64,000 bases of DNA from Nymphaea colorata. Its lineage: Eukaryota; Streptophyta; Magnoliopsida; Nymphaeales; Nymphaeaceae. The notes beneath the pieces were generated by a model. It searched no databases and was not told the origin of the DNA. It was given only the letters and a program-made list of their open reading frames with translations. Location: positions 2,978,001-3,042,000 of the forward strand of contig NC_045148.1 of assembly GCF_008831285.2 (NCBI RefSeq), written 5' to 3'. A program made the position numbers and the translations under genes. Shown piece by piece: positions 7,641 to 63,479 of the stretch (position 1 is the stretch's first letter; every line of letters starts with the position of its first letter).

Positions 7641-7697
7641 GTTTCTTCTTGGCAAACTTTTGGTGATCACACTATAAGTTTGTAAGTTTGAGGAAAG

Positions 7698-10690: not shown

Positions 10691-11083
10691 TCATCTTCCA
10701 TCTCCAACAAGATCATGCAGGGCAGCCTGCTCATCAGTAAGGGGCACATAATGTGACACTCCCGCGTCTGATGTTGTAATTGATTGAGTGTGACCATCTT
10801 CAAGTTTAGAAGTTGCAGAAGTAGAAGTGACATTGCTGATGAAGTTGCTTGTGTCATCGAAATCCCAATCAGTCAAATATCCAGGTCTTGACATCACTGG
10901 GTTTACGTCTATGTCACCTGATATCATGGCTACCACACGGGACATGGGTGGTCGAAGTCCTGGAGATGCTTGTGTGCACAGTAATGCAACTCCAATCAAT
11001 CTAAGAGCTTCTTTCTCATTAAAATCTGTAAGAAACTTGTCCACCAAGTCCAACTCAGAGTTGCTTTCATGTAAATGCCAGGC
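10691..11083 (-). CDS. RLK exon 22: kinase end and C-terminal tail
   Basis: 393-nt terminal exon after ATGCCAG, encoding [28 protein letters not shown] (subdomain XI), RVVAMISGD and a Ser/Thr-rich tail ending at TGA (10,693-10,691). Confidence 0.95.
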   Translation of the reverse strand, partial: AWHLHESNSELDLVDKFLTDFNEKEALRLIGVALLCTQASPGLRPPMSRVVAMISGDIDVNPVMSRPGYLTDWDFDDTSNFISNVTSTSATSKLEDGHTQSITTSDAGVSHYVPLTDEQAALHDLVGDGR

Positions 11084-14000
11084 CTGGCATGTTAAAAGAG
11101 AGGGTTAGATCTAACAGGAGATGACCTCACAAATGCACTTCATAAATGTTTAGTTGGAAACAAGAAGAGCAAAGATCATTGTGGATCCACTATCCTGGAT
11201 TAAATTTGATTTTACAGCTAACAACTTCTGTATAAACTATGAGAAGTACATATCTCCATATTTCTATTTATATCCATATAGTTGTGAAAAATGTTCAACA
11301 TCATCTGCACATTGGCAACAATTCTATCAATCTTAGGAACAAAAGAGTCTCAAATGGTAATATAACCTATTTCATATAATTTTCAAGCATTATATTTTTA
11401 CCCATTCTAGTAAATAAATCTTGCTTCTATCCAAGCTTGTGTCTGCATTGGGCCTTCCACTGAGGATTTCAAGCATGACAACACCAAATCCAAAAACGTC
11501 TGCTTTCTCTGTTAGGTGCCCACGCATTGCATACTCTGGTGCAAGATATCCACTACAAAAGGTTCCCAGTAACCAGGTATCATGAGTTTTGAGAAATTCT
11601 ACATCCAGAATTTAGAATAGAGAGCTGAATATTGTGAAAGAAAAACTTACATCGTTCCAGCAACTCTTGTACTAATATGAGTCTTCTTATCATCATAGAG
11701 CTTTGCTAAACCAAAATCAGAGATCTTTGGGCTAAGCTCGGCATCAAGCAGTATATTACTTGCTTTCACATCTCTGTGCACAATCCTTATCCTTGACTCT
11801 TCATGAAGATAAGCAAGCCCCTGAGCTGTGCCCAGGCAGATTTCATAGCGAGTAGGCCAATCAAGGTTAAGTCCACTTTTTCCTACAAGAAAGTATATTG
11901 ACGCTTATTACAGAGGCAAGTCTCTGGTGATGTAGCAACACACATATCTCTTAGTTCTGGACCGGCCTCATAGTCCTTATGAAGTCTCCAGCACATTTTC
12001 CAGGTAAACCAAAAACAGAGCTAAAGATGATGGTCACATCTCAAGAAGAGCTTGTATTGCTAGGTTTTAAGATACAGAAAGTTAGTTCCCAGGCCAACTT
12101 ATAGTTCTAGTCTTTGGATTAGTTCAATAGATTTGGTAATTTCTTTTTAGAAAATTCATTAAGAATCTCATAGCGTCATGCTGTAAACCCTTAAATAAAC
12201 AAGCAACTGGACATACTGGTGCACTTACATTATGTTCTTCTAGTACATAACCATTAACCTGCCTAAACACATTAAAACACCCAAAGAACCCCCAACCTTA
12301 ATGACAATATGTTATTTATACTGTCTTATCTTTCTGGATTGGATCCCAATGTCTAACTCCTGTCAGACCAAAACTCTAATAGCTCACCATCCTAATTGTC
12401 CTGGAAGTCCTTTGGCTCACACAAGTTACTCAAACTATGTAAAGGCATTGAGTAGAGGCTAGGATATCTTAATCAAGATGTCAAAAGATACATGTAACCA
12501 ACATTTCATGGGGGTGTGTCAGAAAGCTTGAGTGAAAATAAGATCTTTTCATTTTTCTTCAATCACAAACCTGAAAGGTCAGGCAGCATAGTTTGGCTGC
12601 CATTAAGCAGACTGACCAAAAGAGCTCTTCGAAGTAATCATGCCAAAAGCTAATAGTAAAGGAAAAGGGCAAAGGGAGTAAGAGAAAGAAACTCAAATTT
12701 TTAAGCTTCTGATCAGGCTATGGTTGCCCAGCTACACAGCATCAAAAAGAGGACGTACCAAAAAGTGCTTGGTCCAGGCTTTTGTTTTCAAGATACTCAT
12801 ACACCAAAAGACGTTGATCTCCCTCAAGGCAGCATCCGTACAATTTTACAAGATTCCGGTGCTGCACTGCAGATATGGCAGCAATCTCTGTAAGAAACTG
12901 ACTCCTTCCCTGTTGAGATGCAGCCGAGAGACGCTTTACAGCAACTACCTTCCCATCAGCAAGAGAGCCCTACACAAGGTATTCTGCGATGAAGGCCTTC
13001 GTTTCTTTGTTTAAATGCACAAAGATCAATTTCAGGCATGGGAACTAAGAGTTAAATTGTTTACAATCCTCAATGTTTCCATTTCTCAGGCAATAGAAGA
13101 ATAGGAAGTACATAACAAGCTTCTATAACTAGACAAGAAAGTTATTTCTTCATAATTGTTATGACCAGAGAAAGAGAGCGTAAAAACATATCATTAACTT
13201 TACCCTGATCTCAAAATTAAAAGTGATTATGGTTGGCAGTAACAAAAATTAAAATATCAGTCCAAATAAAATAAGATATCCTTTAAAAACACACACTCTA
13301 ACTTCCTAATATTGCAGAAAGACTTTAAGTGACAGTTAAAGATATTTAACACTCCCCCTCAAGCTGGAGCATAGATGTCAGTCATGCTCAACTTGTTACA
13401 TCCTTTCAAGAAATCGCCTATGGGAAGGGCCTTGGTAAAAATATCAGTTGCATGATCTTCATATGAGACATGAATAGTACTATTACTCCTTCCTGTACCA
13501 AGTCTTGAACATAATGACAATCCACTTCAATGTGTTCTATTCTCTCATGAAAAACAGGGTTGTTGGCAATATAGGTGGTTGCCCTGTTGTCACAATGCAT
13601 CTTCATTGGGAGATTCACTGACATACCCAAATATAAAAGCATTGATCTGACCCATGACATTTCAACTGTATTTTGGCCCTGATGGTTCAATTGAACGGTT
13701 CAAGGCATGTCTTGTCGCTGAAGGATATACTCAAACTTATGGTGTTGACTTTTTTGAAACTTTCTCACCTGTGGCTTGGTTGAGCACTATCCGATTGATT
13801 ATATCCCTTGTTGTCCAGCGATAGTGGCCTCTATTTCAACAGGATGTGAAAAATGTTTTTCTGTATGGAGACCTTTTCAAAACCGTCTATATGCAGCAAC
13901 CACCTGATTTTGAGCGACAGGGGGAGTGTTTCAAAGTATGCAAATTAAAGAAGGCTATTTATGGACTTAAACAAAGTTCTCGTGCATGGTTCCAGAAGCT

Positions 14001-17000
14001 AACTAAGGTTTTATCTATGTGTGGATTTCGATGATCCCAGCTTGATCACTCGTTGTTTATCAAGTGAGGCACATCTGGTATAGTGATATTGATTGTATAC
14101 GTGGATGATATTGTTCTCAATGGAGAAAGTAATCAAGAGATAGCTCAGACAAAGGAGTTTTTACAGCAACGCTTTGTCACAAAAGACCTTGGACAACTCT
14201 GTTATTTTCTTGGTATTGAGGTGACTCGTAGTAGTAAAAGAGTTGTAGTGTCTCAAAGAAAATATGTTCTTGATCTTATGCAGGAAACAGGTTTATTGGG
14301 AGCTAAACCTGCCATACTTCCCATGAATCCCCGCATTCATATACATGATGATGAATCAGAGCCTTTTGACTCTAGATCTTACAGATTTCTGATAAGGATA
14401 CTGTTATATTTGACTGTCACTCGCCCCGACATTAACTTTGTTGTGAATAAGCTAAGTCAGTTTATGGAAAAACCCAAAAAGGTTCATTGGGACGCCGCTC
14501 TAATGATTGTCAGATACTTGAAATCAGCCCCGAGAAAAGGGTTATGGTTCAAAAAGGGAGAAGGTGTTGACATCGAAACGTATATTGATGCTGATTATGC
14601 AGGGTCTAGATGACAGAAAGTCTACTACAGGTTTTTGTGTCTTTGTGGAAGGTAATCTTATTTCTTGGAGGAGCAAGAAGCAGAATGTGGTGGCTCGATC
14701 TAGTGCTCAATCGGAATATAAGGCCATGGCTCAAACTGTGACTGAAATGTCATGGGTCAAATCATTGCTTCTAGAGTTGGGTGTTTCAGTGGATCTCCCA
14801 GTGAAAATGTATTGTGACAACAAGGTAACTATCTATATTGCTAAAAATCATGTCCATGAGAAGACGAAACACATTAAAGTTGATTGCCACTATGTTCGGA
14901 ACCTAGTTCAAGAAGGAATTGTTAGCACTATTCATGTCTCTTCAAAAGATCAGGTAGCTAATATCTTCACCAAAGCTCTTCCCATAGGAGATTTCCTGAA
15001 AGCTTGTAACAAGCTGAGCATGATTGATATATATGCTCCAGCTTGAGGGGGAGTGTTAAAAAGTGTTTCTGCAATATTAGAAAGTTAGATAGAAGGTCTT
15101 TAAATATTTTCTTATACTTGTTGAACTGTTTTTGTAAATTTTGTATCGTCAGCCCTAATCTCTTTTAACTTGAGATTAGGGTTACTATCATTATTTTGGG
15201 CTCTCTCTCTCTCCCATCGTAACAGGCATTAGGGAGACCTCCGCTCTGATACCATGTTATGACCAGAGAGAGAGAGAGCGTAAAAACATATCATTAACTT
15301 TACCCTAATCTCAAAGTTAAAAGAGATTAGGGCTGGTGGTAACAAAAATTATCATCTCAGTCCAAATAAAATAAGATATCCTTCAAAAACACACACTCTA
15401 ACTTCCTATTATTTGCAAAAAGACTCTAAATGACAACTAAAGATATTTAACAATAACAACTGAGAGCTTCTGTTGACTTGTATACAAGACATGATCGAGA
15501 GAAGAATTTAAAAAGAAATATTGGTCAAGCCACTGTAGCTGATAAGCCAATATCAAAGTCATGCAGATAGAAAGACATATCAATTAATTAACAAGGGAAA
15601 ATATAAAAGAATAATTTTAATGAGGCAAGCATTAGGGACCAAAACTGGCAACATGAAAGAGTAAATCTGCTTTCATAAGAATGCCAACAAACGGTGTGTT
15701 TCTCTGTGTCTTAATGGGCATGTGCAGGATACCTTATAAACTGTTCCAAAACCCCCTTGTCCCAATTTATTTGCAGGGTTGAAGTCTTCAGTTGCGGTCT
15801 TCAGTTCAGCATAGCTAAATGTGTTTGGTCTTGCACCCGTTACCAAAAGCTCTGTATTTTCAAACAAAGCATACTTACAATTATGATGAATGATTTAATC
15901 AAATAAAAAGCATTTTACCATGCAACATTTACAACAGCTAAACTTGGAATCAGCACCAGCAATGCAATTATGTTCTATTAACCAGAGGTCATTGAATATA
16001 TATGGTACTTCTTTTTCAATCATCTCAAAAAGATTTCATCACCTTCATCTGCAGATGCCAAGAGGAGTTTTTTCTTTCTTTGCTTTAGAAAAAGAACTGA
16101 AATGATGACCGTGATTCCAATTGCCACTATGACAGCCGCAACAGTCCCAACAACTAGTCCAGTTCTGCTCTTTTGGGGGGGAGGATTTGATGAGGGGCTA
16201 CTTTCTGGTATAAAGTCTGGATGCCCGAGCAAATAATCAGTCACATAGTCCTGCTTTGTAATTTCTGGCAGATAATTAATCTATTGTTTGAAGTTTTCCT
16301 GAATTTTAAATGAGGGTAATACCTGGGGTTACACTAATTGCTGAAACAGTTGGTCCATAAGTGCCTGCTACTGGAATACAACAAGTTCCTTTTCCAGCCC
16401 AGAAGAAGTGGATTTCAAGGAAATTTTGAGATACATTTGCCGTGTAGTTCAATGAAACAGATCTTAAATAGGTACCGCCTGCTTGCTTTGTTATGTCAAA
16501 GTCTTTCTTTGCCAGGTTACCCTACAGAAGTGTAGGCCCAAATTGTTTAACCTTATGATAATTTTTCCCACTTCTATTAGATATACGATGATAGATAGCA
16601 CAACTATTCCAATGAAGTGTGTCGGGCAACTTGCCTGAATGTGGATGTCAAAAAGACGCCTGCCAACAGAACCTTGGATAGTTGTCTCAGCAAATTCTAG
16701 CTGTACCGTATAGTTCCCATTTTCAAGACCCAGGCCATAGTATCGCAATGATCCAGGCGATGCCCTTGCCGTTTGGAATAACTCAGAGTCTAAAGTGTTG
16801 GTAAACTGTGACTGGCTGTTTAGGATATATTGAGGATTGTCGATGTCAATAAACACCCCATTGCTACTGACAGCCCACTTCTTTGTCTCAGTAGTAAAAT
16901 AGGATGAAGCATTTAGAGATGCATTGTCTCTTTCAAATAGTGTGCCCAGAGTCCCGGATTTAATGTCAAGGCCACCACAATTTACTGCAAAGGAAGAATC

Positions 17001-20000
17001 TGTAAAATAGAGAAAGGCAATCACCACCTAACTCACATTTCCTTTTTGATCATGAATACTTGCATTTCATACATGCATGACAATTTGAACACAAGTTTCC
17101 ATTCATATTTGATGATTTCGATTAAAACTCTATTGCCTGTCGTAAAAAAGGAAGCATACAACCACATACCAAGCATACAGTGTGTAATACAAATCAACCC
17201 TGAATTTTCTCGCTACTTTTACCAACACATCCAAAAGAGATTTGTGCTTTTACATATCATCACAGTAACACATTTTCCTGATATCTTCGTAGTGTCTTTA
17301 TCATGAGGAGAAAGCAATCTAAAAGCAAAAATCTCACAAGCTGTTGAATATACAAGACATGTATTTACAACACTATGATACTATTACAATATTATAAAGA
17401 AAATTTTGTTTATTTGGTTAATAAATAACTTTCAATTTTTTTTCCAGTTTTTTATGAGTTCCCAGTTCCTAAGAATTATCAGAAAAATGTCAAGATCATA
17501 ATATTATCCCTGTCGAGATATTGAATCCAGAACTGAAACTATGACCAAGATTCTCCTTTTTCAATTGGGGATAAGCCCCAATCACCAAGACTAGCAAGGA
17601 AAACATTATGAAAAAGCCTAGGCAACACAATGGCAGGTTGAGAGTTGATCCAGAGTCTCCAATTTGACACCTTCAACATTATCCTCCTACCACTTGCAAT
17701 TCTGGTGGTTTACGATTATGATTGCCATGAAGGTAGCTTGCACACTACATGACAGGTTGCTGAGGAAATTCAATGAAGGTTGTTCTACTTGTTAACGATG
17801 CAGGATCTATACTTAGGTGGTTATGCATTTGTTAGAAACAACTTTATTCTCTTTCTATGTCCTTCCCTTATTTGTTTTTCTGTATTTTTCCTGAACTTCC
17901 TTTTTATGAATTTTTCTGTTACCTTTCCTTTTTGTGCTTTATTGGGGACTCCAATGGCTAGAATTTATAGCCATTGGGTCTCCAACAGCCCTTTCTTATG
18001 CTCTATTTAGGGTACCATTTGGCCCCATTCAAGGTAACCTTCCTTGAAGTTATTTTTTAGTGAACTCTTTAATACCTTAAGTGCACTGCTTTTCCTCATC
18101 TTGTGAGGTACACTTTGTGTGAGAAATGTAACTTTCATATTTATATTTGTTTCTTAAGTGGATTGAGTATTCTTAATCTAAATAATGCGTCTGAGAGAAC
18201 ATGATAACATATCACTATTTCAGCAACTACATAACACTGAAACCAATTATGATAGGTTTAAGGTTTTTGGCTGCAAATGATACACATTGGATGATAAAGC
18301 TGTTCCTTTAAACACTAACTTTTGCTCCTTGGTTGTAACAGCAACAAAAGAAAAGGATTCACGTCTGGGTTATCATTTTCCCTTGTCAGATCTCTATATT
18401 TGCATGTTGTTGAGTCATTGACTGCTGATTAAGTCCTTTCTTCCTTTCAGTCTCAAGTCATACTTTCTTGGCCTTAAATTCTTCCTTGTCCTTTATGGAT
18501 TCCTCTACTCATACTGGGTTTTCCTCAAATTTCATGATTCAACTTTTTTCTTTTTTCTTTTTTGAAAACTTAGCCCAATTTTTTGAGTTGGAAGATGCAA
18601 ATAATCCCTTTTATAAGAAGTCATGATTTGTTTGGCCATCTGGATGGTTCCATTCTAGTCTCACCACAGTTTAGTTTGCAGGAAATAGAGGATGAGAAGG
18701 GATTGCCTGTAGACTATGTTGTTAAGACCTCGCCCAGCCGTGGACTAAGTGTGAGTGCACACCCGTCGCCTACGTCCACCACTTAGGCGACGGGATATAT
18801 GTTGGCGCTTAGGCTGGTGCCTAAGCTCGCCTAGGGTGGCATAGGCTCCAACACGCCTATGTTAAATAACATTAGTAGCATGAGAATACGTCTTCTTCAG
18901 GAAAGACCACATATCTTTAGCTTTGGTGTAATATGCAATTTTTGGAGCTATACGGGACTCTACACTGTTCACAATCCATGCCATTACAATGTCATTATCT
19001 TCAACCCATGCAGCATATTTCCCTTTTTCCTCAAGGGGTTTGTCTTCTTCAATAATATATTTCTTTCTATGACCAGCCACAGACATCATAAATACCTTCA
19101 TAATTCGAACCATCAAGTTTGATTGTGGTTCCATAAGAAAAAGAGTTCCCAGCCATCTTGTATTCATTAGGCCCTTCTGACCTACTACCGTCAGCCATAG
19201 TAGGAAACCAATGTAATAGAACACGATTACCACAGCCAAAGGACGTGCAGGCAGCATTTTAATTTTTTTTCAGACGACGGCAACAAACAGCAATTTCAGA
19301 TATAAATTGCAGGCAGTAAACATACACAGGTCTAGCAGTAAATCTCAACACAACATGTTAGCTCCACTCAACTTCAACTATGTTGTAACTGTTAAGTCTG
19401 TACGTATAAGTGTAAGGGGATCGGGTCTCTTCAGACCCGATCCACTTTGTTTTTATGTCTTCACGTCTAAGTGGTGGCATCTCTTGTAATTACTTCATGT
19501 TTTATTCCTCTTTTTGTTGTAACCTAATTAGGTTTATGTTTTAATAATAGAGATCAAGCATCGTGTGGCTGCATTGGCCGACGGTTCTCTTACCTTCATT
19601 GCTTTCTTCTATTCTCTATTTTCCATCCTCCTTATTTTCAGACGGAGAGACGTGATTCGGTGGTGTTTTAGTGAAGATTCTCACATGGTATCAGAGCCAG
19701 GTTACATCGTCCTCCGGTGAGTGATTTCTGCTTGGAGTATTCTGCCATAAATCTTATTTTCTGTCGTGGTTATCCCCAAACTCTGTTTCTGCCCTTAATC
19801 CCACGATTTGCCCTAATTTCTGTTGCCCTAAATTCTGTTTTTTGCCCTAAGTCACACGGTTTTCCCTAATTTGCCCTAATTTCTGTCGTGACCTTTAAAA
19901 TTCTGCCCCAATCGTCTGTTCTAATCCTCTCTTTCAATCATGGACCAGCCGACTCCCTCTCTTCTATCTTCTAGTTTTCTCTCACAACTCATCTCTCAAA

Positions 20001-29000: not shown

Positions 29001-29586
29001 TTTCTTGATTCTAATCTCATTTGTTGGAGCAGTAAAAAGCAGCGTGCAGTTGCACGATCTAGCACTGAGGCAGAGTATAGAGCAATGGCTGCAGGGACAG
29101 CTGAGGCATCATGGTTACGACATTTGCTTGGAGAGCTTCATCTACCTATTGTTCAGTCCTCATTGCTATGCGACAATCAAAGCGCCATCAAAATTGCCTT
29201 CAACCCCATTTTGCATAATCGTACCAAGTGTTAAAATATAAAGCCTTCACCAGCACGTTGAAGAGGAGTCTCTTAGGATTTCACCTCCTTGTAGAATGTG
29301 TTAAAATATTTAATGTCCTTGTAACATGTGAAGAGTCTCCTAGGATTCTATGTTATAGTTAATATCCTTGTTATATGGGAAATCTCCTAGGATTCTATGT
29401 TGTAGTTAATATCCTTGTAATATGTGAAGTCTCTTAGGTTTCTATGATGTAATTAATGTCCTTGGAGCTTGTGAAATCTCTTAGGATTCTACGATTGGAG
29501 ACTCTTAGAATTCTGAAAATGAGATTATAAATAGAGGCCGTGCAAACCATTTTGGCTACGGCTTCTTCTCCTCAGTTTCTTCTTGT

Positions 29587-29623
<37 letters not shown>

Positions 29624-34572: not shown

Positions 34573-34611
<39 letters not shown>

Positions 34612-51355: not shown

Positions 51356-51396
<41 letters not shown>

Positions 51397-54300
51397 CCCT
51401 TCTTCCTCTAATATTCAACATGGTATCAGAGCCACAGACCTAGGGTTGTGTGATCTATGGTTTCACGCCTAGGGTTCCCTCCTTCTCTCATTTCTCTTCT
51501 CTTCCTCCGAACTAGGGTTTCACACCTAGGGTTCCTGCTGTTTACAAAACAAGCAAGTTGATTGGTTGGTTGGATAGGGGCTAATCACGTTTAACATGTA
51601 AAAATGTGATTAGCACCTTTGTGTTGTTGTTTTTGTCGTGAAGTTGCTGAAAGTTGTTGCCGTTGAAGCAGATCACGTCGCTGAAATGGTGAATCAGATC
51701 AGACCTAGCTAGAACATTACATCTAACTCAAGTGCAGCCGTGGAAGATGTTCAGGCCAAAGAACGTCGAATCTACTAGGGCAGTCTAATCTGTTTAGTCG
51801 TGTGGTGCCTGGTGGATTCCCACAGGCAAAGGTACGTCATGTTGGCAGGTTCAGTTTCTGCATCGTTAAAGTGAGACAAGTTTGAAATTGTATGGAGTAG
51901 GCAGATTTCTGGTTTCTCTCTGCATCGTTGAAGTGAGACAGTTTTTCTCCTCTGTCAAACCTGTGCTTGTTTGCTACCTACTATCAACATCTGAAAGTGT
52001 TGCCTGCTATCCACGTCTGCCAATTTGTTTTGTATTTATGTTCAACCTGATCCTTAAGTGGATCTCGTGGAGGTTACTACGGCTGTAATCAGATTTGTAT
52101 GTTGACCGTGTGGGGCAGAGTCAATCTGCTGTTTGTGGATGTAATTTGACGTGAGGAGCAAAATGACCTACAGATCGTGGATGTGAAATCTATAAGTTGA
52201 GGTCTCATTAGTTGTGGACTGTTGTTGATTGTAAAGTTTTTGCTTGTGTTGCAGTCATCAGCTGAAACTATTTTATTGAGTTGCTACCTGAGTTTCTGCC
52301 TATGTTGCTGCCTGTTTTAGTGAATTTCTGATTTGATGGTTGGAGCCATAAGTGTGTTCCAGATTCTTCTGTGTTGTCGTGCCTTGATTGAAGTTGACTA
52401 TTGCACCTTATACATACATATTGTGAGTACAATTCTAGTTGGAATTTTACTATGGCTAATGGTAATGTGCCTGAGGGTTCCAATAACTACAAGATGGCTG
52501 GAAATTCCTTCTAATATGCCAACACTATTGTAATAGACTCTTCCTTCTCTGTTGGTGCTCCTACCGATGACCGAGATATGATGTGGATGATAGATTTTGG
52601 CGCCTCCAGACAATGTTGTAATCAACCAATATTTTTTCATCATTAGTCAGATTCTCTCCACCACAGCATGTCAAACTGACTGATGGCAAGCTATCTCCTG
52701 TGATGGGCAGCGGTGATATTTATCTCCCACATTTAGGCACTATTACCCACGTGTTCTATGCTCCGTAGTTTCCTATTAATTTGTTATTTGTTAAACAGTT
52801 GGCTATTGATTTAAAGTGTAGAGTCATCTTTTACCCTAGTTCATGTTCTTTTCAGGACTTACTAACTAGGAAGATGATTGGTGGCGGCCATGAACATGAG
52901 GGTCTCTATTACCTGTCTGTCCCAGTAAATGTTGTTGCATCTTCATTCTCCTCGAAGCCTTCTCTTTTTCAGTGTCCACTCAAACTGGGTCATCCTTCAG
53001 TGTCCAAACTTCGTCACATGCTTCCAGGTATTATTGTATCAGAGTCCTTATGTGATGTTTGCCAGTTAGGCAAACATACATGGAGTAGCTATCCTTCGAG
53101 TCAAGAACCATCTAGTCAAAGTCCATTTGATCTCATTCGTGTGGATGTGTGGGGTCCTAGTCGGGTTCCTTTTCACTCTCGTTTTCGGTATTATCTTGTT
53201 TTGGTTGATGATTTTACTCGAGTCAGTTGGGTATTCTTGTTACGGGAAAGATCTGAAGTCATATGTATTCTTCCTAAATTTGTCAAGGAAATAAAAACTC
53301 AATTTGGTTTCATTATCAAAAATATTCACACTGATAATGCTCTTGAATTCAAATCTTCCGTTCTACTTCAATTTTATGTCAATCATGGAGTTCGACCTCA
53401 ATATATTTGTCCATACACATCCCAACAAAATGGTGTTGTCGAACGCAAACATCGGCAACTCCTAAATGTGGCACGTACTGTATACCTACTTTTGGGGGAT
53501 GCTATTCTTACCGCATGTTATATCATTAACAGATTACCCTCGTCAGCCATCCAAGAACGTATTCTCATTCAACTTTTATATCTAAGTCGACCACTATTTC
53601 ATATACCTCCCAAAGTATTTGGATGCACTTGTTTTGCACACATCCTAGGCCCAGACAAAAACAAATTTGCTGCCCAAGCCATCAAATGTGTATTTATTGG
53701 ATACTCTGCCAATCAAAAATGATAAAGTGCTTTGATCCCCAGACCAAGAAAGAGATTATCAGTGCGGATGTTACATTTTTTGAGTCTCGTCCTTATTTTT
53801 CCCCTTCGAGTCCTCCTCCGTCTGAGATGCCTATACATGTTCCTCTTCCTATTCCACCATTGTCACTTGAGTCATTCCCGCCATCTCAACCTATGTCACA
53901 TGAACGTTTCCCTGATCTTCCATTGGTTTACACTCGTCGTCTTGGTCCCTCTCCCAACCGCCCACCAGTGTCTTCCCAAGAGGTAAGCTCCACTGATCAG
54001 ACTGATTCAGATTTAAATGATGAACACTATACAAATGATCTCTCTATTGCTATTTGTAAGGGCAAGCGACAGTGCACACTACACCCGATTTCTAATTCTA
54101 TCTCTACTGATCATTTGAGTACAAGTTTGGTGCAGTTTGATCGAGCTCTGTCTAGTCACATGATCCCTTCTTCTCACCATCAATCCCTATTAGATTCACA
54201 GTGGCGGCATGCCATGCAGGAGGAAATGGATGCTCTTATCTCTCAAGAGACTTGGGAATTGGTGGATCCACGAGGGACTGTGATGTGGTTGGCTCCAAGT

Positions 54301-56090
54301 GGGTGTTCACCATCAAGTATCATTCTGATGGTTCAGTTGAACGGTTCAAGGCACGTCTTATTGCTAAAGGATATACACAGACTTATGGTGTCAACTTCTT
54401 TGAGACTTTTTCTCCCGTGGCTCGATTGGGCTCTTTCGACTTATTATATCTCTTGCTGCCCAGCGACAATGGCCTTTATTTCAACTGGACCTGAAAAATG
54501 TTTTTCTATATAGAGATCTTTCTAAAACTGTCTACATGCAGCAACCACCTAGTTTTGAGCGACAGGGAGAGTGTTCCAAGGTATGCAAATTAAAGAAGGC
54601 TATTTATGAGCTTAAACAAAGTCTCAATGCATGGTTTCATAAGCTATCTGAGGTCTTATTTAAATGTGGCTTTCGTCGATCTGATTATGTTCATTCTATT
54701 AAAGCTTAACAGAGAGCCAATTTCTCTGCTTTTGGTGATTATTGGTGTTGACTTGATCCAGTTTGTACATGTTTATCATGTAGCGTTGAAAAAAGATTGC
54801 AATACTTTCAGTCTGGAGTGCTAGAAAATATTAAAGAAGGAGAATTAGGCACAGGCGCAGAACTATCTTACTTCAAGAGATAATGGCATCAAGATTTGAT
54901 CTTTAGGTCAATTAGGGCAACCATTTTTACTAAAATTTCCAGTTTCGACTTTTTCATTTTCAATAAGAAAGTTTTATCTTTCAAAGTTTCCCTAGTCTAG
55001 CGACTGATCAAAACCTAAAATGTAAATCTGAATTCTCATCAAACTTATGATTTGTGAAGAATTTCATGAAAAAACAACTGTTCTGACATATATGTGGTTC
55101 ATTGTTGTTGGTTGAGAAACAAGAAGCCACCAACAGAAACAAGATTTAGACTTTTTGTTATTTTTCTCAATAAATCTAAAATCAATGAAGTCTCCAAATC
55201 TTGGATTACTTTTTGATTCACATAGCTGTTTTAGAAGAGTTGGGTTTCAACCAAATTGTACAAATAATAAACCCAAAATGAAAATAAAATTGATAACCAA
55301 TTTTACTCTTGTGCACATGAAATTGCAAATCTCAGAGAAAAACTTACAGCTCCTGCAGATTAAGTAAGTTCCCGAGTTCAGACGGTAGGCTGCCAGAAAA
55401 ACTGTTTGGGCCAAGTCTCCTGAAAATTCAATGCAAAACTTCAATAACCACATTCATTTGCCTTAGGGAAGATTTGAAACTTAGGTTCAAATTTTTTAGA
55501 AATAAATGAAAATATATTTAAGTTTTCCAAGTTCCTTTGGAACTGTCCCAGAGAGGGAATTAATACTAAAAGCTCTGGCAATAATCAAGAAAATGAAAGG
55601 ATCACAAGAAATTTCCAGATAAATGGTAAAAGCAAAAAAGAAAAAAGAAAAACAGATCAAACTATCAGAACTCAGAACTATCGAAGAATTGAGTCACAAA
55701 CTATACAGGGACTGCATGGACGTTAAATTCCCAATCGATGGAGACAACGTCCCTGTTAACATATTCTGACCCAGATTCCTGCAAAGCATGAAACACACAT
55801 TATGGCTGATGGCGATGCGTTAGCAACTAAATGGATGATAAATCAGCGAAAATAAGAGTAATATACAGATAACTCAGGGCAGTAAGGTTCCACAGGGCTT
55901 CCGGTATACTGCTATTCACACTCTCACCGAAAACTTTCCTGCAAAAGGAGAGGAAATGAATGACTACATAATATAAGATGTAAAACCTATAAATCAAAAC
56001 CTTATATTTACAAATCAATTGCCACTGAAAGTTACTCAATTCCGCCAGATATCGAGTACTTGGAAATCAAAATGTGTGTATGAGTTGTGC

Positions 56091-56144
<54 letters not shown>

Positions 56145-56833
56145 ATTTAGTTATACGGCAAATGGTGCCGTTATTAACGCTGCAGTTACACTTGATTGCA
56201 TAGTTGCCCAGCCCGCTCTCTATGTCAGTGGAATCGACGGCAGTCCCGGTGCATGGTTCGGTTAGATTCCACGAAGCAGAGGATTGAAGACTCCATTGTC
56301 GTGATATGCTTCTAAAAGCACTAGCTGTTCATCCCAAAAGTACTTAGCTTGTTAGTATCATCTTTTCAAACGTCTAGCAACGGAAAAGAAGAAAGCGTTT
56401 CTCACATAAGAAATGGAGAATTAGATTAGGTGTTAACTGGAACGAGATCGATTTGTAGAGCTAGAACAGCAAAATAGAATCTACCCAGTTGCTTATCCAC
56501 AAATTCGGCAAATAAAAAGCTTTTAGTTGAAGAGATGGGGGGTGAATCAAATGGAAACATCAGAGCCCCAAATTTTTTGGAATGTGGTAACTGTTCTTTG
56601 CTTTTCCTACTAAAACTAGGTAAAAGAGTTCAACGATAATGCAGATGAAGAACAATCAAAGGAGAGCAATTTCTCATCATTTAAGCAACAAGATGAAGAT
56701 TACCATCAGCTGGGTCAGTGCTCGTGGTAGCTTGAGCTTGGACACCCTTGCCAACCAACACAAAGCAGACAAAACCGTGAAATGTTAAAAGAAACAAAAT
56801 CCGCAGAGACCAACCAAAATTAAACACCTCCAT
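10691..56833 (-). CDS. LRR-malectin receptor-like serine/threonine kinase (LRR-VIII-2 type), whole gene, 22 coding exons
   Basis: Plasma-membrane receptor kinase: an extracellular LRR plus malectin-like ectodomain would sense a ligand or cell-wall carbohydrate and signal through a cytoplasmic Ser/Thr kinase. Joined minus-strand exons give 2,997 nt, 998 aa. Seen in order: signal peptide (about 1-34), Cys-containing N-terminal region (about 45-103), LRRs (about 104-364), malectin domain with VNCGG (about 385-565), transmembrane helix (about 592-616), kinase with [14 protein letters not shown] lysine (about 682), HRDVKASN (about 776), DFG (about 796) and APE (about 822). Length matches the family's roughly 1,000 residues. 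The order and the run of 72-nt LRR exons match Arabidopsis At1g56130/At1g56140-type genes. The ATG at 56,833 is the first in the transcript; no ATG lies in the short stretch upstream. One LRR exon is lost (55,503-55,574) and one intron is GC-AG. The ligand cannot be told from sequence. Gene identity is very sure; exon ends were read by eye. Confidence 0.93.
11402..11552 (-). CDS. RLK exon 21: kinase C-lobe with APE
   Basis: 151-nt exon between TTGTAG and GTAAAA, encoding [20 protein letters not shown] and [16 protein letters not shown]. Confidence 0.95.
11651..11882 (-). CDS. RLK exon 20: kinase catalytic and activation segments
   Basis: 232-nt exon between CTTGTAG and GTAAGT, encoding the catalytic loop [13 protein letters not shown] (RD kinase), DFG in [12 protein letters not shown], and [10 protein letters not shown] of the activation segment. 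Confidence 0.95.
11883..12758 (-). other. RLK intron without a recognisable insertion
   Basis: This 876-nt intron between exons 19 and 20 shows no transposon protein or repeat that I can identify. Confidence 0.6.
12759..12969 (-). CDS. RLK exon 19: kinase N-lobe, catalytic lysine
   Basis: 211-nt exon between GTGTAG and GTACGT, encoding VVAVKRLS with the ATP-anchoring lysine, [18 protein letters not shown] with the helix-C glutamate, and [17 protein letters not shown] in the hinge. Confidence 0.95.
13418..13672 (-). pseudogene. Copia RNase H C-terminus (minus arm)
   Basis: Minus-strand peptide with [40 protein letters not shown] and EVDCHYVQD, the end of a Copia RNase H. It breaks at about 13,672, where plus-strand coding begins. 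Homologous to 14,738-14,995 in the opposite orientation. Confidence 0.85.
13672..15046 (+). pseudogene. Copia reverse transcriptase and RNase H (plus arm)
   Basis: Plus-strand half polyprotein beginning at [19 protein letters not shown] and running through [49 protein letters not shown] and RYFLGIEV-like sequence to RNase H ([50 protein letters not shown]). A stop near 13,822, another near 14,032 and a frameshift near 14,610 break it. Gag, protease and integrase are absent. Confidence 0.9.
15054..15224 (+). mobile_element. Plus-oriented third LTR inside the rearranged Copia
   Basis: Starts TGTTAAAAAG right after the polypurine tract GAGGGGGAG and ends CGTAACA. It shares the TTTGTA-CCCTAATCTCTTTTAA-TGAGATTAGGG core with the other LTRs of the family, in the opposite orientation to the outer pair. 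A 19-bp spacer separates it from the inverted primer-binding site. Confidence 0.75.
15733..15851 (-). CDS. RLK exon 18: kinase N-lobe, glycine loop
   Basis: 119-nt exon between ATACAG and GTATCC, encoding [20 protein letters not shown] and the loop [10 protein letters not shown]. The next intron (12,970-15,732) holds a rearranged Copia. Confidence 0.94.
16043..16216 (-). CDS. RLK exon 17: transmembrane segment
   Basis: 174-nt exon encoding a Ser/Pro-rich juxtamembrane stretch, the hydrophobic helix [20 protein letters not shown], then a basic stop-transfer KQRKKK. Donor AAG|GTGATG joins in frame to exon 18 (E|ELLVTG). Confidence 0.88.
16323..16521 (-). CDS. RLK exon 16: malectin domain, second part
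   Basis: 199-nt exon between TCTGTAG and GTATTA, encoding [34 protein letters not shown] and [14 protein letters not shown], the conserved end of the malectin-like domain. It ends in phase 1. Confidence 0.94.
16635..16999 (-). CDS. RLK exon 15: malectin domain, first part
   Basis: 365-nt exon after TTTTACAG, encoding [43 protein letters not shown] and RRLFDIHIQ. The 121 full codons stay open. The donor is GC (CAG|GCAAGT), the strong-consensus form used by GC-AG introns. Reading on without splicing leaves the family sequence at once, so the GC donor is needed. Confidence 0.92.
17000..17779 (-). other. RLK intron sequence without recognised features
   Basis: Start (in plus coordinates) of the 20.5-kb intron. 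AT-rich; no transposon protein seen. Confidence 0.5.
17800..18190 (+). mobile_element. Possible LTR remnant related to the 7.7-8.2 kb LTR
   Basis: Shares with 7,698-8,218 the order pyrimidine-rich tract, CCAATGGCTAGA-TTT-TAGCC, CCTTG-AAGG, then CTTGTG near the end. Similarity is patchy and the borders are unclear. Confidence 0.3.
18496..18724 (+). pseudogene. Copia gag N-terminal fragment
   Basis: Plus-strand remains resembling the start of the gag at 29,905: [14 protein letters not shown], then after frameshifts [25 protein letters not shown] and [10 protein letters not shown]. It is cut at about 18,724. Confidence 0.7.
18725..18860. repeat. GC-rich GCCTAGGCG-type repeat
   Basis: A 136-bp block of GCCTAGGCGA/CGCCTACG-like words lies exactly between a plus gag fragment and a minus gag fragment. 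It resembles a dispersed plant repeat; the family is not identified. Confidence 0.4.
18862..19200 (-). pseudogene. Copia gag N-terminus (outermost element)
   Basis: Minus strand: [20 protein letters not shown], then [10 protein letters not shown], a frameshift, and [20 protein letters not shown] with [19 protein letters not shown], the UBN2-type capsid start of Copia gag. Truncated on its 3' side. Confidence 0.75.
19390..19685 (+). repeat. 5' LTR of the plus-strand host Copia
   Basis: 296 bp, TGTTAAG...TCACA, followed at once by the initiator-Met primer-binding site (19,686 onward). It contains a short palindrome around GATCGGGTCTCTTCAGACC. Confidence 0.95.
19940..21036 (+). pseudogene. Copia gag and protease start of the host element
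   Basis: Open from [12 protein letters not shown] through the UBN2 capsid region and zinc knuckle [14 protein letters not shown] to EWYVDS, the first residues of the protease active site. There the next insertion cuts it. The following codons GAAAHVTG resume at 26,213. The frame itself is intact; the gene is broken by the insertion and by later stops. Confidence 0.95.
21037..21323 (-). repeat. 3' LTR of the intact minus Copia
   Basis: 287 bp. Preceded by target duplication GACTC and followed by the inverted polypurine tract. Confidence 0.96.
21318..25634 (-). CDS. Copia gag-pol polyprotein, intact, 1,438 aa
   Basis: A single open frame from MDQPTPSL to its stop. Domains by approximate residue: UBN2 capsid 20-230; zinc knuckle [14 protein letters not shown] near 288; aspartic protease [10 protein letters not shown] near 365; gag-pre-integrase WHGRLAHCS near 508; integrase core with [10 protein letters not shown] near 568, QCDGGGEF and [16 protein letters not shown] near 665; reverse transcriptase with DVKNAFLHG and the catalytic [12 protein letters not shown] near 1,115; RNase H with [19 protein letters not shown] near 1,283, [17 protein letters not shown] and [15 protein letters not shown]. 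It would make capsid and the enzymes for cDNA synthesis and integration. No stop or frameshift was seen. It lies antisense to its host Copia and in the same orientation as the kinase gene. Confidence 0.97.
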   Translation of the reverse strand: MDQPTPSLLSSSFLSQLISQKLNHSNYLTWKRQIVPFIKSHRLYGHIDGTTPAPPKYIYREVKKTVVGDQAIGASAGSETSIEYDTLTESNPEYDVWLAHDQSLVAYITSTLSEEVLGGIDDDLTALELWSTLATTYSQVSEARLLQLRRQFQDIKRGTRTVLEYLNEIKNVSDQLAAIGHPVSDKDKVQQALSGLGTEFDIFCTALEVLPILPSFEDLKAKLFQHEASRVQRQNLTSPNSHNVLITGTHALQGNRTRPWTPQAGMGRGILPTPPGMNTTAATSRRVPTCFYCNKRGHVKSECWHNPQNKNNQVRRENKAAAGSVSSSSSSNPTSNVSSEVQQLLMTALSKLHLKQNEQGEWYVDSGAAAHVTGDTGTLSSVFPYLDQGSVVTGDGSHHTISHIGNAQISMGSSSIPLKDVLVVPSVKKNIISVSKLIDDTHSSVEFTPSSVYVKDARTKRTFAEGTRKGDMYVLEEAPKLSKSHPSDPSFSIHSEINVAEYNKPSIWHGRLAHCSQSFVRSLVADGRLDKSSLSSVSESSMCSSCHLCKSHALPFQLINKRASKVFDTIHSDVWGPAPIPSSSGSRYYVIFIDSYSRYTWIHFIKHKSEVFRLFTQFHALVRNKYSSNIVHFQCDGGGEFISNEFTEYLLDNGITRQTSCPHTPQQNGIAERKHRHIVESALSMMHDTDLPMTLWTEAFHTAVHAINRLPLALLDGKSPFFLLHQEQPCYEDLRVFRCVCYVHVDVSLRNKFQDRAVLCRFIGYAENYKGYRCYNPKTGRVHISRHVVFDESRLQDSKATSLTLKDKNEVYDTWLHAEILRQGAEKLNEHKEQAVNEPETPVSSSLDSVPPFPQPNDPPPYNRFSGLVYSRRSVPTAEPTAVPRQSQRVRHPIDRWVSYNTFSLDFQLFMTEVNKKVEPKSYHHASKEKCWVEAMNEEMAALHECQTWQIVPRPNTKNVVGSKWVYKLKYKPDGSIDRHKARLVARGFTQQYGEDYDEIFSPVIKMGTIRVIISLAVSYGWPLYQLDVKNAFLHGILKEEVYMEQPPGYTTHDPQQWVCKLQKSLYGLKQASRSWFDRFSHHIQQVGFLRSSLDHSLFIYHSGEATTWLLIYVDDIVITGNSTSHISYVKNMLKQEFKMKDLGELRYFLGVELDRTNDRLTLTQHKYTLDVLDRAGMTNCKPITTPSVLNTKLTSSDGTAAYSDPTFYRSIVGMLQYLTFTRPDIVYAVNQISQFMHAPTEGHMDAAKRILRYLKAFLGDGLVYTKCPNLSLGHSIYTYTDADWAGDPDDRRSVSGFCLFLDSNLICWSSKKQRAVARSSTEAEYRAMAAGTAEASWLRHLLGELNLPIAQSSLLCDNQSAIKIAFNPILHNRTKHIEIDQHFIRQKVEEAEIVPTYISTSERIADIFTKGLTGQHFWDLKNKLCMVKSHAQLEGGC
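25668..25800 (-). repeat. Degenerate tandem repeat in the Copia leader
   Basis: Between gag start and primer-binding site the sequence repeats CAGAAAACAGAATTAGGGCA and AAAACGGAC-GAAATTAGGGC words about two to four times. The plus-strand host element has the same style of leader (TTGCCCTAATTTCTG words, 19,795-19,910). Confidence 0.7.
25921..26207 (-). repeat. 5' LTR of the intact minus Copia
   Basis: 287 bp, adjoining the inverted primer-binding site on its left and the second GACTC on its right. Confidence 0.96.
26213..29228 (+). pseudogene. Copia pol of the host element, two nonsense codons
   Basis: Continues the protease ([11 protein letters not shown]) through gag-pre-integrase, integrase, reverse transcriptase ([12 protein letters not shown] near 28,430) and RNase H ([19 protein letters not shown]) to LHNRTK at 29,228, where the next element inserts. 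In-frame TGA at about 26,982 and TAG at about 27,894 break it; the intact copy has Arg and Trp there. Otherwise the frame is closely similar to the intact element. Confidence 0.93.
29229..29684 (+). repeat. 5' LTR of the nested plus Copia
   Basis: 456 bp. Contains several copies of an internal motif like CTCCTAGGATTCTATGTT-GTAGTTAATATCCTTGTAATATG, a TATAAATAG TATA-like box at 29,526-29,534 and a (CT)n tract near 29,593-29,620. Confidence 0.95.
29905..34220 (+). pseudogene. Copia gag-pol with one frameshift
   Basis: Gag starts at [12 protein letters not shown] (29,905), with zinc knuckle [14 protein letters not shown] near 30,721 and protease [11 protein letters not shown] near 30,920. At about 31,105-31,115, within an A-run, one base is missing compared with relatives (ISK-KNIIS), and the frame shifts. 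The remaining pol is open to its stop at 34,220: gag-pre-integrase [10 protein letters not shown], integrase [16 protein letters not shown], reverse transcriptase [12 protein letters not shown] near 33,236, and RNase [20 protein letters not shown] near 33,745. The shift lies inside the protease to pre-integrase linker, where no programmed slip is known in this group, so I call it a mutation. It could also be a read error. Confidence 0.92.
34215..34668 (+). repeat. 3' LTR of the nested plus Copia
   Basis: 454 bp, near-identical to the 5' LTR, including the repeated AGTCTCTTAGGATTCTA words and the (CT)n tract. Confidence 0.95.
34674..34855 (+). pseudogene. RNase H C-terminus of the host Copia
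   Basis: Resumes [17 protein letters not shown] to [14 protein letters not shown] and HAQLEGG, then the polypurine tract and 3' LTR. It completes the host pol interrupted at 29,228. Confidence 0.93.
34856..35162 (+). repeat. 3' LTR of the plus-strand host Copia
   Basis: 307 bp. Matches 19,390-19,685 except for an 11-bp insertion in the GGGTCT palindrome and a few substitutions. Followed by GTAAC. Confidence 0.95.
35644..35847 (-). repeat. 5' LTR of the outermost minus Copia
   Basis: TGTTGCAGATTG...CTTTAACA on the plus strand, next to the inverted primer-binding site. Shares the CCCTAATCTCATATTAAAAG-AGATTAGGG core with the LTRs at 13.2, 15.1, 15.3 and 51.2 kb. Confidence 0.85.
35848..37520 (-). 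other. Intron sequence, mostly featureless
   Basis: Right end of the 20.5-kb intron. 35,900-36,030 has words resembling the 17.8-kb LTR remnant in inverse orientation (AGCCATTGGAGCTATA). I see no coding in the rest. Confidence 0.4.
37521..37582 (-). CDS. RLK exon 14: linker from LRR to malectin
   Basis: 62-nt exon between CATCCAG and GTAAGA, encoding [20 protein letters not shown], the conserved CLQ-FPC linker before the malectin domain. It ends in phase 1. The 20.5-kb retroelement nest follows as its downstream intron (17,000-37,520). Confidence 0.88.
37811..37876 (-). CDS. RLK exon 13: LRR end
   Basis: 66-nt phase 2-2 exon between CTTCCAG and GTAAGT, encoding [20 protein letters not shown], the last LRR unit. 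Confidence 0.92.
37877..38752 (-). other. RLK intron without a recognisable insertion
   Basis: This 876-nt intron separates exons 12 and 13. No element or conserved frame seen. Confidence 0.6.
38753..38818 (-). CDS. RLK exon 12: LRR
   Basis: 66-nt phase 2-2 exon between GTGCAG and GTATGT, encoding [20 protein letters not shown] tandem GTATGT gives two nested candidate donors; the first keeps the frame. Confidence 0.9.
38917..38988 (-). CDS. RLK exon 11: LRR
   Basis: 72-nt phase 2-2 LRR exon between TTTTGCAG and GTATGT, encoding [18 protein letters not shown]. The intron upstream of it in the transcript (38,989-43,725) holds Copia fragments and a GC-rich repeat block. Confidence 0.92.
39090..39415 (+). 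pseudogene. Copia gag fragment with broken zinc knuckle
   Basis: Plus strand, homologous to 40,830-41,060. Ends with [18 protein letters not shown], a CCHC knuckle whose last cysteine has become tyrosine. It lies left of the LTR at 39,480 and so belongs to a different copy from the one that follows. Confidence 0.65.
40320..40830 (+). pseudogene. Copia gag (DUF4219/UBN2-like) remnant
   Basis: Starts [20 protein letters not shown], with [19 protein letters not shown] and EFGEWDKNN-like capsid sequence. A stop near 40,613 and frameshifts follow. Confidence 0.8.
41078..41945 (+). pseudogene. Copia reverse transcriptase and RNase H remnant
   Basis: Fragments [29 protein letters not shown] (the catalytic YVDD motif is replaced by VVHD), [21 protein letters not shown]-stop, then RNase [21 protein letters not shown] and [12 protein letters not shown]. 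Many lesions. Confidence 0.85.
41960..42715. repeat. GC-rich degenerate repeat block
   Basis: A sharp rise in GC over about 750 bases built from words such as GGCTGGCCATCATGGC, GCCGAACC, CCAGCCAT and TGGCTGAGCC in irregular succession, in an otherwise AT-rich intron. Several open frames here are by-products of base composition. It could be the LTR of an unrelated element or a foreign repeat; I cannot name it. Confidence 0.55.
42716..43540. other. Intron stretch, possible repeat tail
   Basis: Begins ATGTCATACCCCGACTTTTA, reminiscent of Gypsy LTR starts, and continues to the RLK exon region with no recognised protein. Confidence 0.3.
43544..43588. repeat. 22-bp tandem duplication
   Basis: GCATGCTCGTTAAATATAGA occurs twice head-to-tail, followed by a third partial GCATG. 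Intronic. Confidence 0.75.
43726..43797 (-). CDS. RLK exon 10: LRR
   Basis: 72-nt phase 2-2 LRR exon between CATACAG and GTAAGT, encoding [18 protein letters not shown]. Confidence 0.93.
43888..43959 (-). CDS. RLK exon 9: LRR
   Basis: 72-nt phase 2-2 LRR exon between CACGTAG and GTAAGT, encoding [18 protein letters not shown]. Confidence 0.93.
44037..44108 (-). CDS. RLK exon 8: LRR
   Basis: 72-nt phase 2-2 LRR exon between CACTGCAG and GTGAGT, encoding [18 protein letters not shown]. The intron upstream of it in the transcript (44,109-49,329) holds the inverted Copia pair. Confidence 0.93.
44457..44818 (+). mobile_element. Probable solo or truncated LTR
   Basis: Starts TGTTAGAATCTGTGTAAATA, resembling the 7,698 LTR start. 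It carries TATATATTGAGGAACTATTC as a TATA-like region near 44,742 and abuts the minus LTR at 44,819. Confidence 0.4.
44819..45028 (-). repeat. LTR of the left arm
   Basis: Minus-oriented, ends CGTCAACA on the plus strand next to the inverted polypurine tract. The inverse of 48,702-48,938. Confidence 0.75.
45060..46320 (-). pseudogene. Copia reverse transcriptase and RNase H (left, minus arm)
   Basis: Minus strand from [19 protein letters not shown] at 46,315 to the RNase H peptide [31 protein letters not shown] and the end before 45,060. Several frameshifts, and the catalytic region is only partly readable. Confidence 0.85.
46300..48690 (+). pseudogene. Copia integrase, reverse transcriptase and RNase H (right, plus arm)
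   Basis: Plus strand: HIPQNGVVE near 46,305, [38 protein letters not shown] near 46,590, then reverse transcriptase [65 protein letters not shown] near 47,735, and RNase H up to [19 protein letters not shown]. Multiple frameshifts and stops. Confidence 0.9.
48702..48938 (+). repeat. LTR of the right arm
   Basis: Follows TTGGGGGGGAG. Shares GTCCAGGTCT-GAC-CTATC, GTGAGCGCCGGAATCATCTC and TTGAGGG-TTTCTATG with the inverted left LTR 44,819-45,028. Ends TTCAACA. Confidence 0.75.
49330..49401 (-). CDS. RLK exon 7: LRR
   Basis: 72-nt phase 2-2 LRR exon between TTTTAG and GTAAGT, encoding [18 protein letters not shown]. Confidence 0.93.
49496..49567 (-). CDS. RLK exon 6: LRR
   Basis: 72-nt phase 2-2 LRR exon between GTGGCAG and GTAAGA, encoding [18 protein letters not shown]. 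Confidence 0.93.
49568..50459 (-). other. RLK intron flank, nothing recognised
   Basis: AT-rich sequence between exon 6 and the first LTR of the 50.5-kb element. Confidence 0.5.
50460..50692 (+). repeat. First 5' LTR
   Basis: TGTTGAATAAT...CAGCAACA, followed by a primer-binding site. Related to but clearly diverged from the second LTR. Confidence 0.75.
50918..51045 (+). repeat. Three tandem 49-bp units in the leader
   Basis: Units start at 50,918, 50,967 and 51,016 with GCTGGTCACTT-CTAAG-GTGGGAACAGCA. The third is partial and more diverged. Confidence 0.8.
51208..51420 (+). repeat. Second 5' LTR
   Basis: TGTTGAAGAGTG...ATTCAACA with an internal (CT)n tract (51,357-51,393), followed at once by TGGTATCAGAGCC. 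Confidence 0.85.
52453..54840 (+). pseudogene. Copia gag start, protease, integrase and partial reverse transcriptase
   Basis: [19 protein letters not shown] at 52,453 runs into a frame with [14 protein letters not shown], in which the protease DSGAS has become DFGAS. Integrase from 52,781 has [26 protein letters not shown] and [16 protein letters not shown] near 53,410. Then [20 protein letters not shown] and reverse transcriptase [20 protein letters not shown] and [14 protein letters not shown] near 54,400, decaying by 54,840. Confidence 0.9.
54841..55347 (-). other. RLK intron flank, nothing recognised
   Basis: Non-coding AT-rich sequence between the truncated Copia and exon 5. Confidence 0.5.
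55348..55419 (-). CDS. RLK exon 5: LRR
   Basis: 72-nt phase 2-2 LRR exon between TTTTCAG and GTAAGT, encoding [18 protein letters not shown]. The next intron downstream (49,568-55,347) holds a Copia element. Confidence 0.93.
55503..55574 (-). pseudogene. Vestigial RLK LRR exon with no 5' splice site
   Basis: After a good acceptor (TGCCAG) the frame reads [18 protein letters not shown], clearly the LRR the family carries between the repeats of exons 4 and 5. The expected last seven codons are replaced by an AT-rich tail (KYIFIYF, then stop). No GT, or GC in donor context, lies at or near the expected 72-nt boundary. I take the exon as skipped; exons 4 and 5 share phase 2, so skipping keeps the frame. 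Confidence 0.8.
55707..55778 (-). CDS. RLK exon 4: LRR
   Basis: 72-nt phase 2-2 LRR exon between TTTGCAG and GTATAG, encoding [18 protein letters not shown]. Confidence 0.93.
55867..55938 (-). CDS. RLK exon 3: LRR
   Basis: 72-nt phase 2-2 LRR exon between TTTTGCAG and GTATAT, encoding [18 protein letters not shown] and the start of the next repeat. Confidence 0.92.
56094..56141. repeat. (GA)n microsatellite at an RLK splice donor
   Basis: An uninterrupted GA run of more than 40 bases on the plus strand (CT on the gene strand). It directly adjoins the exon 2 donor, whose GTCTCT consists of the donor GT plus the first repeat unit. Confidence 0.9.
56144..56324 (-). CDS. RLK exon 2: N-terminal cysteine domain
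   Basis: Acceptor AACAG, then [23 protein letters not shown] and [16 protein letters not shown], the conserved cap of this RLK subfamily. The 181-nt exon ends in phase 2 at a weak GTCTCT donor that is the first unit of a (CT)n run on this strand. The following exon joins in frame (KL|KVFGE). Confidence 0.88.
56704..56833 (-). CDS. RLK exon 1: start codon and signal peptide
   Basis: ATG at 56,833-56,831 opens a peptide beginning MEVFNFGW, followed by a Leu/Phe-rich hydrophobic stretch and a likely signal-peptidase site after VQAQA, then the family's TTSTDPAD-like mature N-terminus. It ends in phase 1 at a GGTAATC-type donor. Length 130 nt. Confidence 0.9.
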
Positions 56834-60957: not shown

Positions 60958-61103
60958 ACACAAATATGTGGGAAAGCCAACCGATAGAGTCTGGGTCTCC
61001 AAAATCACTTCAAGGACTCAGTAAAGTCAGACACAAATATGTGGGAAAGCCAACCGATAGAGTCTGGGTCTCCAAGATCACTTCAAAGACTCAGTAAAGT
61101 CAG
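60958..61103. repeat. 73-bp tandem duplication
   Basis: Two adjacent copies beginning ACACAAATATGTGGGAAAGC, at 60,958 and 61,031. They differ at very few positions, so the duplication is recent. Confidence 0.88.
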
Positions 61104-63192: not shown

Positions 63193-63290
63193 ACTTTAAC
63201 AAGGGCCGAAATACATTCAAAGTTGATCTCGATTGGGTACCACTTTAACAAGGGCCGAAATACATTCAAAGTTTATCTCGATTGGGTACC
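63193..63290. repeat. 49-bp tandem duplication
   Basis: ACTTTAACAAGGGCCGAAAT starts at 63,193 and again at 63,242. The copies are nearly identical. Confidence 0.88.
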
Positions 63291-63479
63291 ACTCTTGCAG
63301 CCTGTAGTGAAACAATGTTTTACCTCTAAATGCTCATAATCTTGTAGTGTGTCCAATCAACTGCTGAGCTTCAATGTTTTTTTTGAAGAGAACCAGTTAC
63401 TCTGAGTTCGAGTGGCATTTCACCTCTAACCACAAACCATCCACTGATTCTACATCAGTTGGTTTAAACCTCCAGTTAA

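Follow-up and report, generated by a model that had tools for sequence, protein, structure and literature searches.

The question raised by this locus is whether a receptor-like kinase gene that runs on the minus strand for ~46 kb, from an ATG at 56,833 to a stop codon at 10,691, and that has retrotransposons in its introns, is one gene and, if it is, whether it is complete. (The window, here and below, is the whole 64-kb stretch of Nymphaea colorata contig NC_045148.1, positions 2,978,001 to 3,042,000 in a 408-Mb genome, that was analysed, and on which the exon borders were located.) A sequence-only reading had described a complete gene of 22 exons. We consider it likely that the locus is a single LRR-malectin receptor-like kinase gene of 24-exon ancestry, that five of its introns are loaded with Copia sequence, and that it is compromised by the state of its exon 2 and exon 5 donors.

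Exon chain and identity of the gene

Omission of exons 5 and 15 (Table 1) returns precisely the 22-exon chain of that reading, with its 2,997 nt, consistent phases and open frame throughout, and the exon ends at 37,521, 16,999, 55,348 and 49,567 are found where that reading had placed them. It is the word "complete" that does not survive: both omitted exons are exons of the relatives, one of them has no donor, and the donor of exon 2 is eroded. Exon 15, left out of the first model, belongs in the gene: its acceptor and donor are usable (U1 duplex energy, -7.6 kcal/mol), and an equivalent exon of 45 nt is present in both paralogues with a worked-out exon layout, C14A and C14B. Adding exon 15 and omitting exon 5 yields 3,033 nt and 1,010 amino acids, with neither stop nor frameshift. 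When both exons are included the chain amounts to 24 exons and 3,105 nt, and a stop arises at the exon 5 junction. C14A has the identical exon order, with 24 of 24 exons present, and can be read for 1,050 codons without a stop (its own final stop codon left out of the count). The borders, which had been called correct, are so for the most part: 21 of the 23 donors in the 24-exon chain are GT, but one of these (exon 2) is very weak, exon 17 has GC, and in exon 5 the donor is absent. At the exon 17 donor the counterpart is GT in C14A, C14B and L001-L003; the GC of the window gene stands in a strong context, and the change is probably harmless.

A Pfam scan of the 1,010-residue exon-5-skipped translation finds LRR, malectin (PF11721, E 5.7e-39) and protein kinase domains, in that order, and this order within one protein is that of the LRR-VIII-2 (LRR-MD-PK) group. 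The gene is an LRR-malectin receptor-like kinase (LRR-VIII-2, CORK1/At1g56140-like), of a known kind and splice-damaged; its family kinship is based on sequence identities. The number of introns is large, 23 in the ancestral chain, one of them without a donor. For poplar LRR-MD-PK genes, a passage of PMC7783096 gives clade maxima of 23-26 introns, with numbers that varied within clades; the 23 found here fit, whereas the 21 of the 22-exon model fall just below. Not every exon that the nearest relatives have can be spliced in the window gene, since its exon 5 lacks the GT donor that 5 of 5 C14 paralogues have. This lowers the completeness of the gene and not its kinship to LRR-VIII-2.

Table 1. 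Exons of the receptor kinase gene and Copia sequences in its introns (window positions; a slash marks the end of an exon)
Feature	Position	Strand	Description
Exon 1	56704..56833	-	ATG, hydrophobic N-terminus; putative signal peptide by reading; aligns with the first exon of C14 paralogues
Exon 2	56144..56324	-	donor ATT/GTCTCTCT running into perfect (CT)n array
Exon 3	55867..55938	-	72 nt, phase 2-2
Exon 4	55707..55778	-	LRR
Exon 5	55503..55574	-	one 72-nt LRR; acceptor intact, GT of the donor lost, 3' end different from that of relatives
Exon 6	55348..55419	-	LRR
Exon 7	49496..49567	-	LRR
Exon 8	49330..49401	-	LRR
Exon 9	44037..44108	-	LRR
Exon 10	43888..43959	-	LRR region
Exon 11	43726..43797	-	LRR
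Exon 12	38917..38988	-	LRR
Exon 13	38753..38818	-	LRR
Exon 14	37811..37876	-	LRR
Exon 15	37685..37720	-	36 nt, usable splice sites
Exon 16	37521..37582	-	cysteine-containing segment ahead of malectin
Exon 17	16635..16999	-	malectin part 1; GC donor CAG/GCAAGT; 5-residue loop deletion
Exon 18	16323..16521	-	malectin part 2
Exon 19	16043..16216	-	hydrophobic segment; putative membrane span by reading
Exon 20	15733..15851	-	kinase glycine-rich loop
Exon 21	12759..12969	-	kinase
Exon 22	11651..11882	-	kinase (HRD, DFG)
Exon 23	11402..11552	-	kinase (APE)
Exon 24	10691..11083	-	kinase end, tail, stop
Copia element A	19390..35162	+ (antisense to gene)	intron 16; 5-bp duplication GTAAC; interrupted by B and C
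Copia element B	21037..26207	- (sense to gene)	inside A; 5-bp duplication GACTC; open frame 21318-25682
Copia element C	29229..34668	+ (antisense)	inside A; 5-bp duplication CCAAG
Copia remnants	13478..15052		intron 20; 13478-13672 minus, 13627-15052 plus
Two gag-region Copia fragments	18577..19269		intron 16; 18577-18690 plus (tblastn), 18865-19269 minus (Pfam)
Copia remnant	41084..41932	+	intron 11; tblastn
Copia remnants in inverted order	45119..48699		intron 8; 45119-46348 minus, 46318-48699 plus
Copia remnant	52799..54700	+	intron 6

One gene or two

Intron 16, with its 20.5 kb and the LTR elements that it contains, is what would favor two separate genes, an LRR-only gene on the 5' side and a malectin-kinase gene on the 3' side. 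Yet the end of exon 16 and the start of exon 17 are both in phase 1, family sequence runs across the junction between them, the single chain of PDB 9hhu also extends across it, and the same junction is found in C14A (over 2.5 kb) and in C14B (over 6.2 kb). The two-gene model is rejected on the phase match and on the presence of this junction in both paralogues, and is very improbable. The anatomy of the locus supports what had been proposed, a single receptor kinase gene that extends across 46 kb and has Copia insertions in its introns.

Judging by the positions of matches, the nearest relatives in the same genome are likewise long genes: exons 5 and 17 are 38.6 kb apart in the window gene and 17.3, 22.2, 23.1, 26.0 and 30.2 kb apart in five C14 genes. 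(In L001 and L002, which are more distant relatives, the LRR matches lie ~3-4 kb from malectin.) Five tandem paralogues of the window gene occupy G000:C14:11566984-11762209. Three of these five (L010-L012) have 91-100% peptide identity per exon, over exons 1-5, to the L010 query, and are therefore recent duplicates.

Splice lesions

The acceptor of exon 5 is intact, and its donor position reads TTA/TTTCTAAA; in all five C14 paralogues the exon is kept with a CT/GTAAA donor. In comparison with C14A, the first 54 nt of exon 5 are identical at 46 positions and the last 18 nt at only 4 (a split picked after reading the alignment). The 46/54 of the front part exceeds the whole-exon identity to C14A of every one of the other 23 exons (0.47-0.81). 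The sharpness with which identity to C14A breaks off suggests that one deletion removed the end of exon 5, its donor and part of intron 5, and the high identity of the remaining 54 nt suggests that this loss is recent. Exon coordinates put the length of intron 5 at 83 nt in the window gene, ~2.0 kb in C14A and ~8.4 kb in C14B. Inspection by eye of the printed sequence in and after exon 5 disclosed neither another in-frame donor nor a U12-type site.

The lesion might instead be an error of assembly or base calling, for a single assembly covers the locus, and the exon 5 search lists one place for the window gene, with no second copy for comparison. At least 18 nt are replaced, however, and with a sharp edge, which is unlike a single-base error, and we regard this explanation as improbable.

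The exon 2 donor passes into a dinucleotide repeat that is perfect over 24.5 units (56094-56142), and its counterpart is GTGTG in 5 of 5 C14 paralogues. It has eroded into a CT microsatellite that is predicted to pair poorly with U1. The computed energy of the U1 duplex is +0.7 kcal/mol for exon 2 and +1.2 for exon 5, with the remaining 21 donors of the window gene at -1.9 to -7.6 and those of C14A at -1.6 to -9.7 (21 scored, exons 15 and 19 being left out and exon 16 entered one base off); such energies indicate the strength of a donor only roughly, in that three C14A donors lie at -1.6 to -1.9 and window exons 3 and 4 at -1.9.

On translation, retention of intron 2 leads to a stop at residue 121, and read-through from exon 5 across intron 5 into exon 6 to a stop at residue 178. 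The 1,010-residue receptor is encoded only by an mRNA that uses the exon 2 donor and skips exon 5. Because exons 3-14 are symmetrical (each starts and ends in phase 2, and is 66 or 72 nt long), skipping of exon 5 would hold the frame and the predicted product is a 1,010-residue receptor minus one LRR, made by way of the weak exon 2 donor and perhaps with reduced efficiency. That product would sit in the plasma membrane and, like its relatives, sense fragments of cell-wall glucans (as putative ligand). An open in-frame chain can thus conceal a lost exon: where the LRR exons are symmetrical, a dead one is passed over unnoticed by reader and gene finder alike.

Copia elements and intron size

Five of the 23 introns exceed 1 kb (intron 6, 5,780 nt; intron 8, 5,221; intron 11, 4,737; intron 16, 20,521; intron 20, 2,763). 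Across these five lie 11 Copia coding units, grouped by eye, of which 10 were located in tblastn searches that used parts of two Copia frames as queries and one, a gag fragment, by a Pfam scan; the sequence-only reading had counted at least eight copies or fragments, and that count stands. Intron sequence totals 43.0 kb, and the Copia footprint takes up 24.2 kb of this. Element B, which lies in sense orientation to the gene, has the longest Copia frame without interruption (1,454 amino acids). The 5-bp duplication of element A was found by scanning candidate ends. K2P distances between LTRs are 0.014 for A (0.019 on the common stretch), 0.007 for B and 0.002 for C; the LTR clock of 7e-9 substitutions per site per year makes these elements, roughly, ~1.0-1.35, 0.5 and 0.16 My old.

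An antisense orientation of the copies had been put forward as a protective pattern, but the counts do not bear this out: 7 intronic units are antisense and 4 sense (two-sided p = 0.55, not significant), and the units longer than 1 kb divide 5 to 2 (p = 0.45). That the longer plus-strand copies are mostly antisense is true by definition for a minus-strand gene, and shows no bias.

Intron 11 of C14A contains a near-twin of element C, with 98.1% identity over 5.5 kb. A single young Copia family has inserted into two members of this receptor family. Insertions that the window gene might have in common with the two C14 genes compared with it were rejected: exons and Copia sequence alone align at E 1e-10, and the near-twin of element C occupies a different intron (11 in C14A, 16 here).

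Some of the intronic Copia sequence is arranged as inverted repeats. The inverted-order fragments of intron 8 form a long imperfect palindrome (44852-48878) with arms that are 80-94% complementary, and elements A and B form another in intron 16, with arms of 1.1-1.5 kb that are 87-89% complementary. A further Copia remnant (5489-7668, plus strand) lies beyond the 3' end of the gene, outside the 11 intronic units. Other repeats are short and tandem, at 50913-51044 (49 bp period, intron 6), 60958-61103 (73 bp) and 63193-63293 (49 bp). The G+C-richer segment at 42001-44000 (0.42) extends into intron 11 and has a 24-bp tandem repeat at 42278-42329; a 169-residue frame at 42556-43062 has no Pfam match. 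In the 64-kb window, no known non-coding RNA family reaches its Rfam gathering score, and ARAGORN, in bacterial mode, finds no tRNA.

Selection and the fate of the gene

A codon model for three sequences (the window gene, C14A and C14B; 984 codons, exon 5 left out) gives an omega of 0.173 on the window branch, which includes the C14 stem and has a length of ~1.2 neutral substitutions per site. A fit with omega = 1 is rejected (2dlnL = 329). With two C1 relatives as outgroups (455 codons of malectin and kinase), omega on the window terminal branch is 0.154 and 2dlnL against omega = 1 just 4.1, on a tree whose outgroup stem is very long (2.97) and in which the window branch is poorly separable from the C14 stem. 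Given this long stem and the 2dlnL of 4.1, the three-sequence result is not assignable to the recent past. The coding parts had been said to remain under selection: the three-sequence model upholds this for the past, but the outgroup run does not extend it to the present. The 1,010 codons free of stops limit any neutral period to at most ~0.024-0.027 substitutions per site (95%). These results show long and strong purifying selection on the coding sequence in the past, with which recent death is compatible.

The gene is compromised: it specifies, at best, a shortened receptor, and it may be an incipient pseudogene. That it is a working gene, in which the loss of exon 5 is tolerated and the exon 2 donor is used enough for receptor lacking one LRR to be made at a normal level, has a little less than an even chance. 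The open chain, with the limit that it sets on neutral time, the preservation of frame on skipping and the omega of 0.173 all argue for this, but the 5' half carries two splice lesions, at donors that 5 of 5 C14 paralogues have kept, and a recent death would give the identical picture.

Incipient pseudogenization would mean that transcripts are mostly truncated or degraded, through failure of the donors of exons 2 and 5 and through premature polyadenylation, invited by the several LTRs within 43 kb of intron. The splice lesions and the stops encountered on retention are consistent with it, as is the extent of the Copia footprint. Transcription through young LTR elements could favor premature polyadenylation. 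There is precedent at RPP7/COPIA-R7, where, according to a passage of PMC7529245, the LTR can end transcripts and EDM2 suppresses this. Against it, the coding exons and the first 54 nt of exon 5 are otherwise well conserved and the rest of the chain is without stop or frameshift; we hold this reading tentatively, as short of an even chance.

A quite different proposal is that the lesion is an adaptation. Exon 5 would be skipped in every transcript, which together with the malectin loop deletion would generate a structurally altered glucan receptor, and at the same time the inverted Copia pairs (A/B in intron 16, and the pair in intron 8) would fold into long pre-mRNA hairpins and give rise to small RNAs that silence these Copia families at other loci, the C14 paralogues among them. 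This combination is very improbable.

If transcripts confirm the skip, the locus provides a natural receptor minus one repeat, useful on the number of LRRs that a glucan receptor needs; otherwise it represents an early stage in the death of a receptor gene that is loaded with young retrotransposons. A literature search on LRR exon skipping found nothing, and one on intronic Copia in receptor-like kinases with pseudogenization found nothing on this case in titles and the opening lines of abstracts (neither of which shows that there is nothing in print).

Relation to known systems

Going by the traits of the family and by 9hhu, the window gene probably belongs to the clade of CORK1, which is among its presumed Arabidopsis relatives. 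Like the CORK1/At1g56145 relatives, it is ordered LRR - malectin - hydrophobic segment - kinase, and its kinase exons contain the HRD, DFG and APE motifs. It differs from them in having one donorless LRR exon, a 5-residue loop deletion and a span of 46 kb. Its role would be that of a membrane receptor for cell-wall glucans, the putative ligand.

A passage of PMC9563578 reports that CORK1 is needed for the response to cellotriose and that two malectin phenylalanines matter. Both are present in exon 17 of the window gene, where a 19-residue spacing (PMC9563578; also 9hhu) equates them with F520/F539. That they are the CORK1 pair is probable on this spacing. Between the two, the window gene has an in-frame deletion of five residues relative to C14A, C14B, L001-L003 and 9hhu.

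Chain A of PDB 9hhu/9hhx ("non-specific serine/threonine protein kinase") is a homologue of the ectodomain (phmmer, E = 5.2e-190). It differs in having the repeat that corresponds to exon 5, as well as those residues of the malectin loop that are missing from the window gene; at the point where the exon-5-skipped protein is without the repeat, the phmmer alignment to 9hhu is broken in two, with an overlap between the pieces.

The intronic setting also has counterparts. RPP7 with its intronic COPIA-R7, as described in a passage of PMC7529245, is likewise a receptor gene with Copia in an intron, but it is an NLR gene with one named element, and the window gene is an LRR-malectin receptor-like kinase. 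The introns of grapevine (PMC3058033) are enlarged by transposable elements and have recent LTR elements, as here; that is a genome survey, and this is one gene. Gene and setting are thus both of kinds already known, and what is new is the dead LRR exon that an in-frame model steps over.
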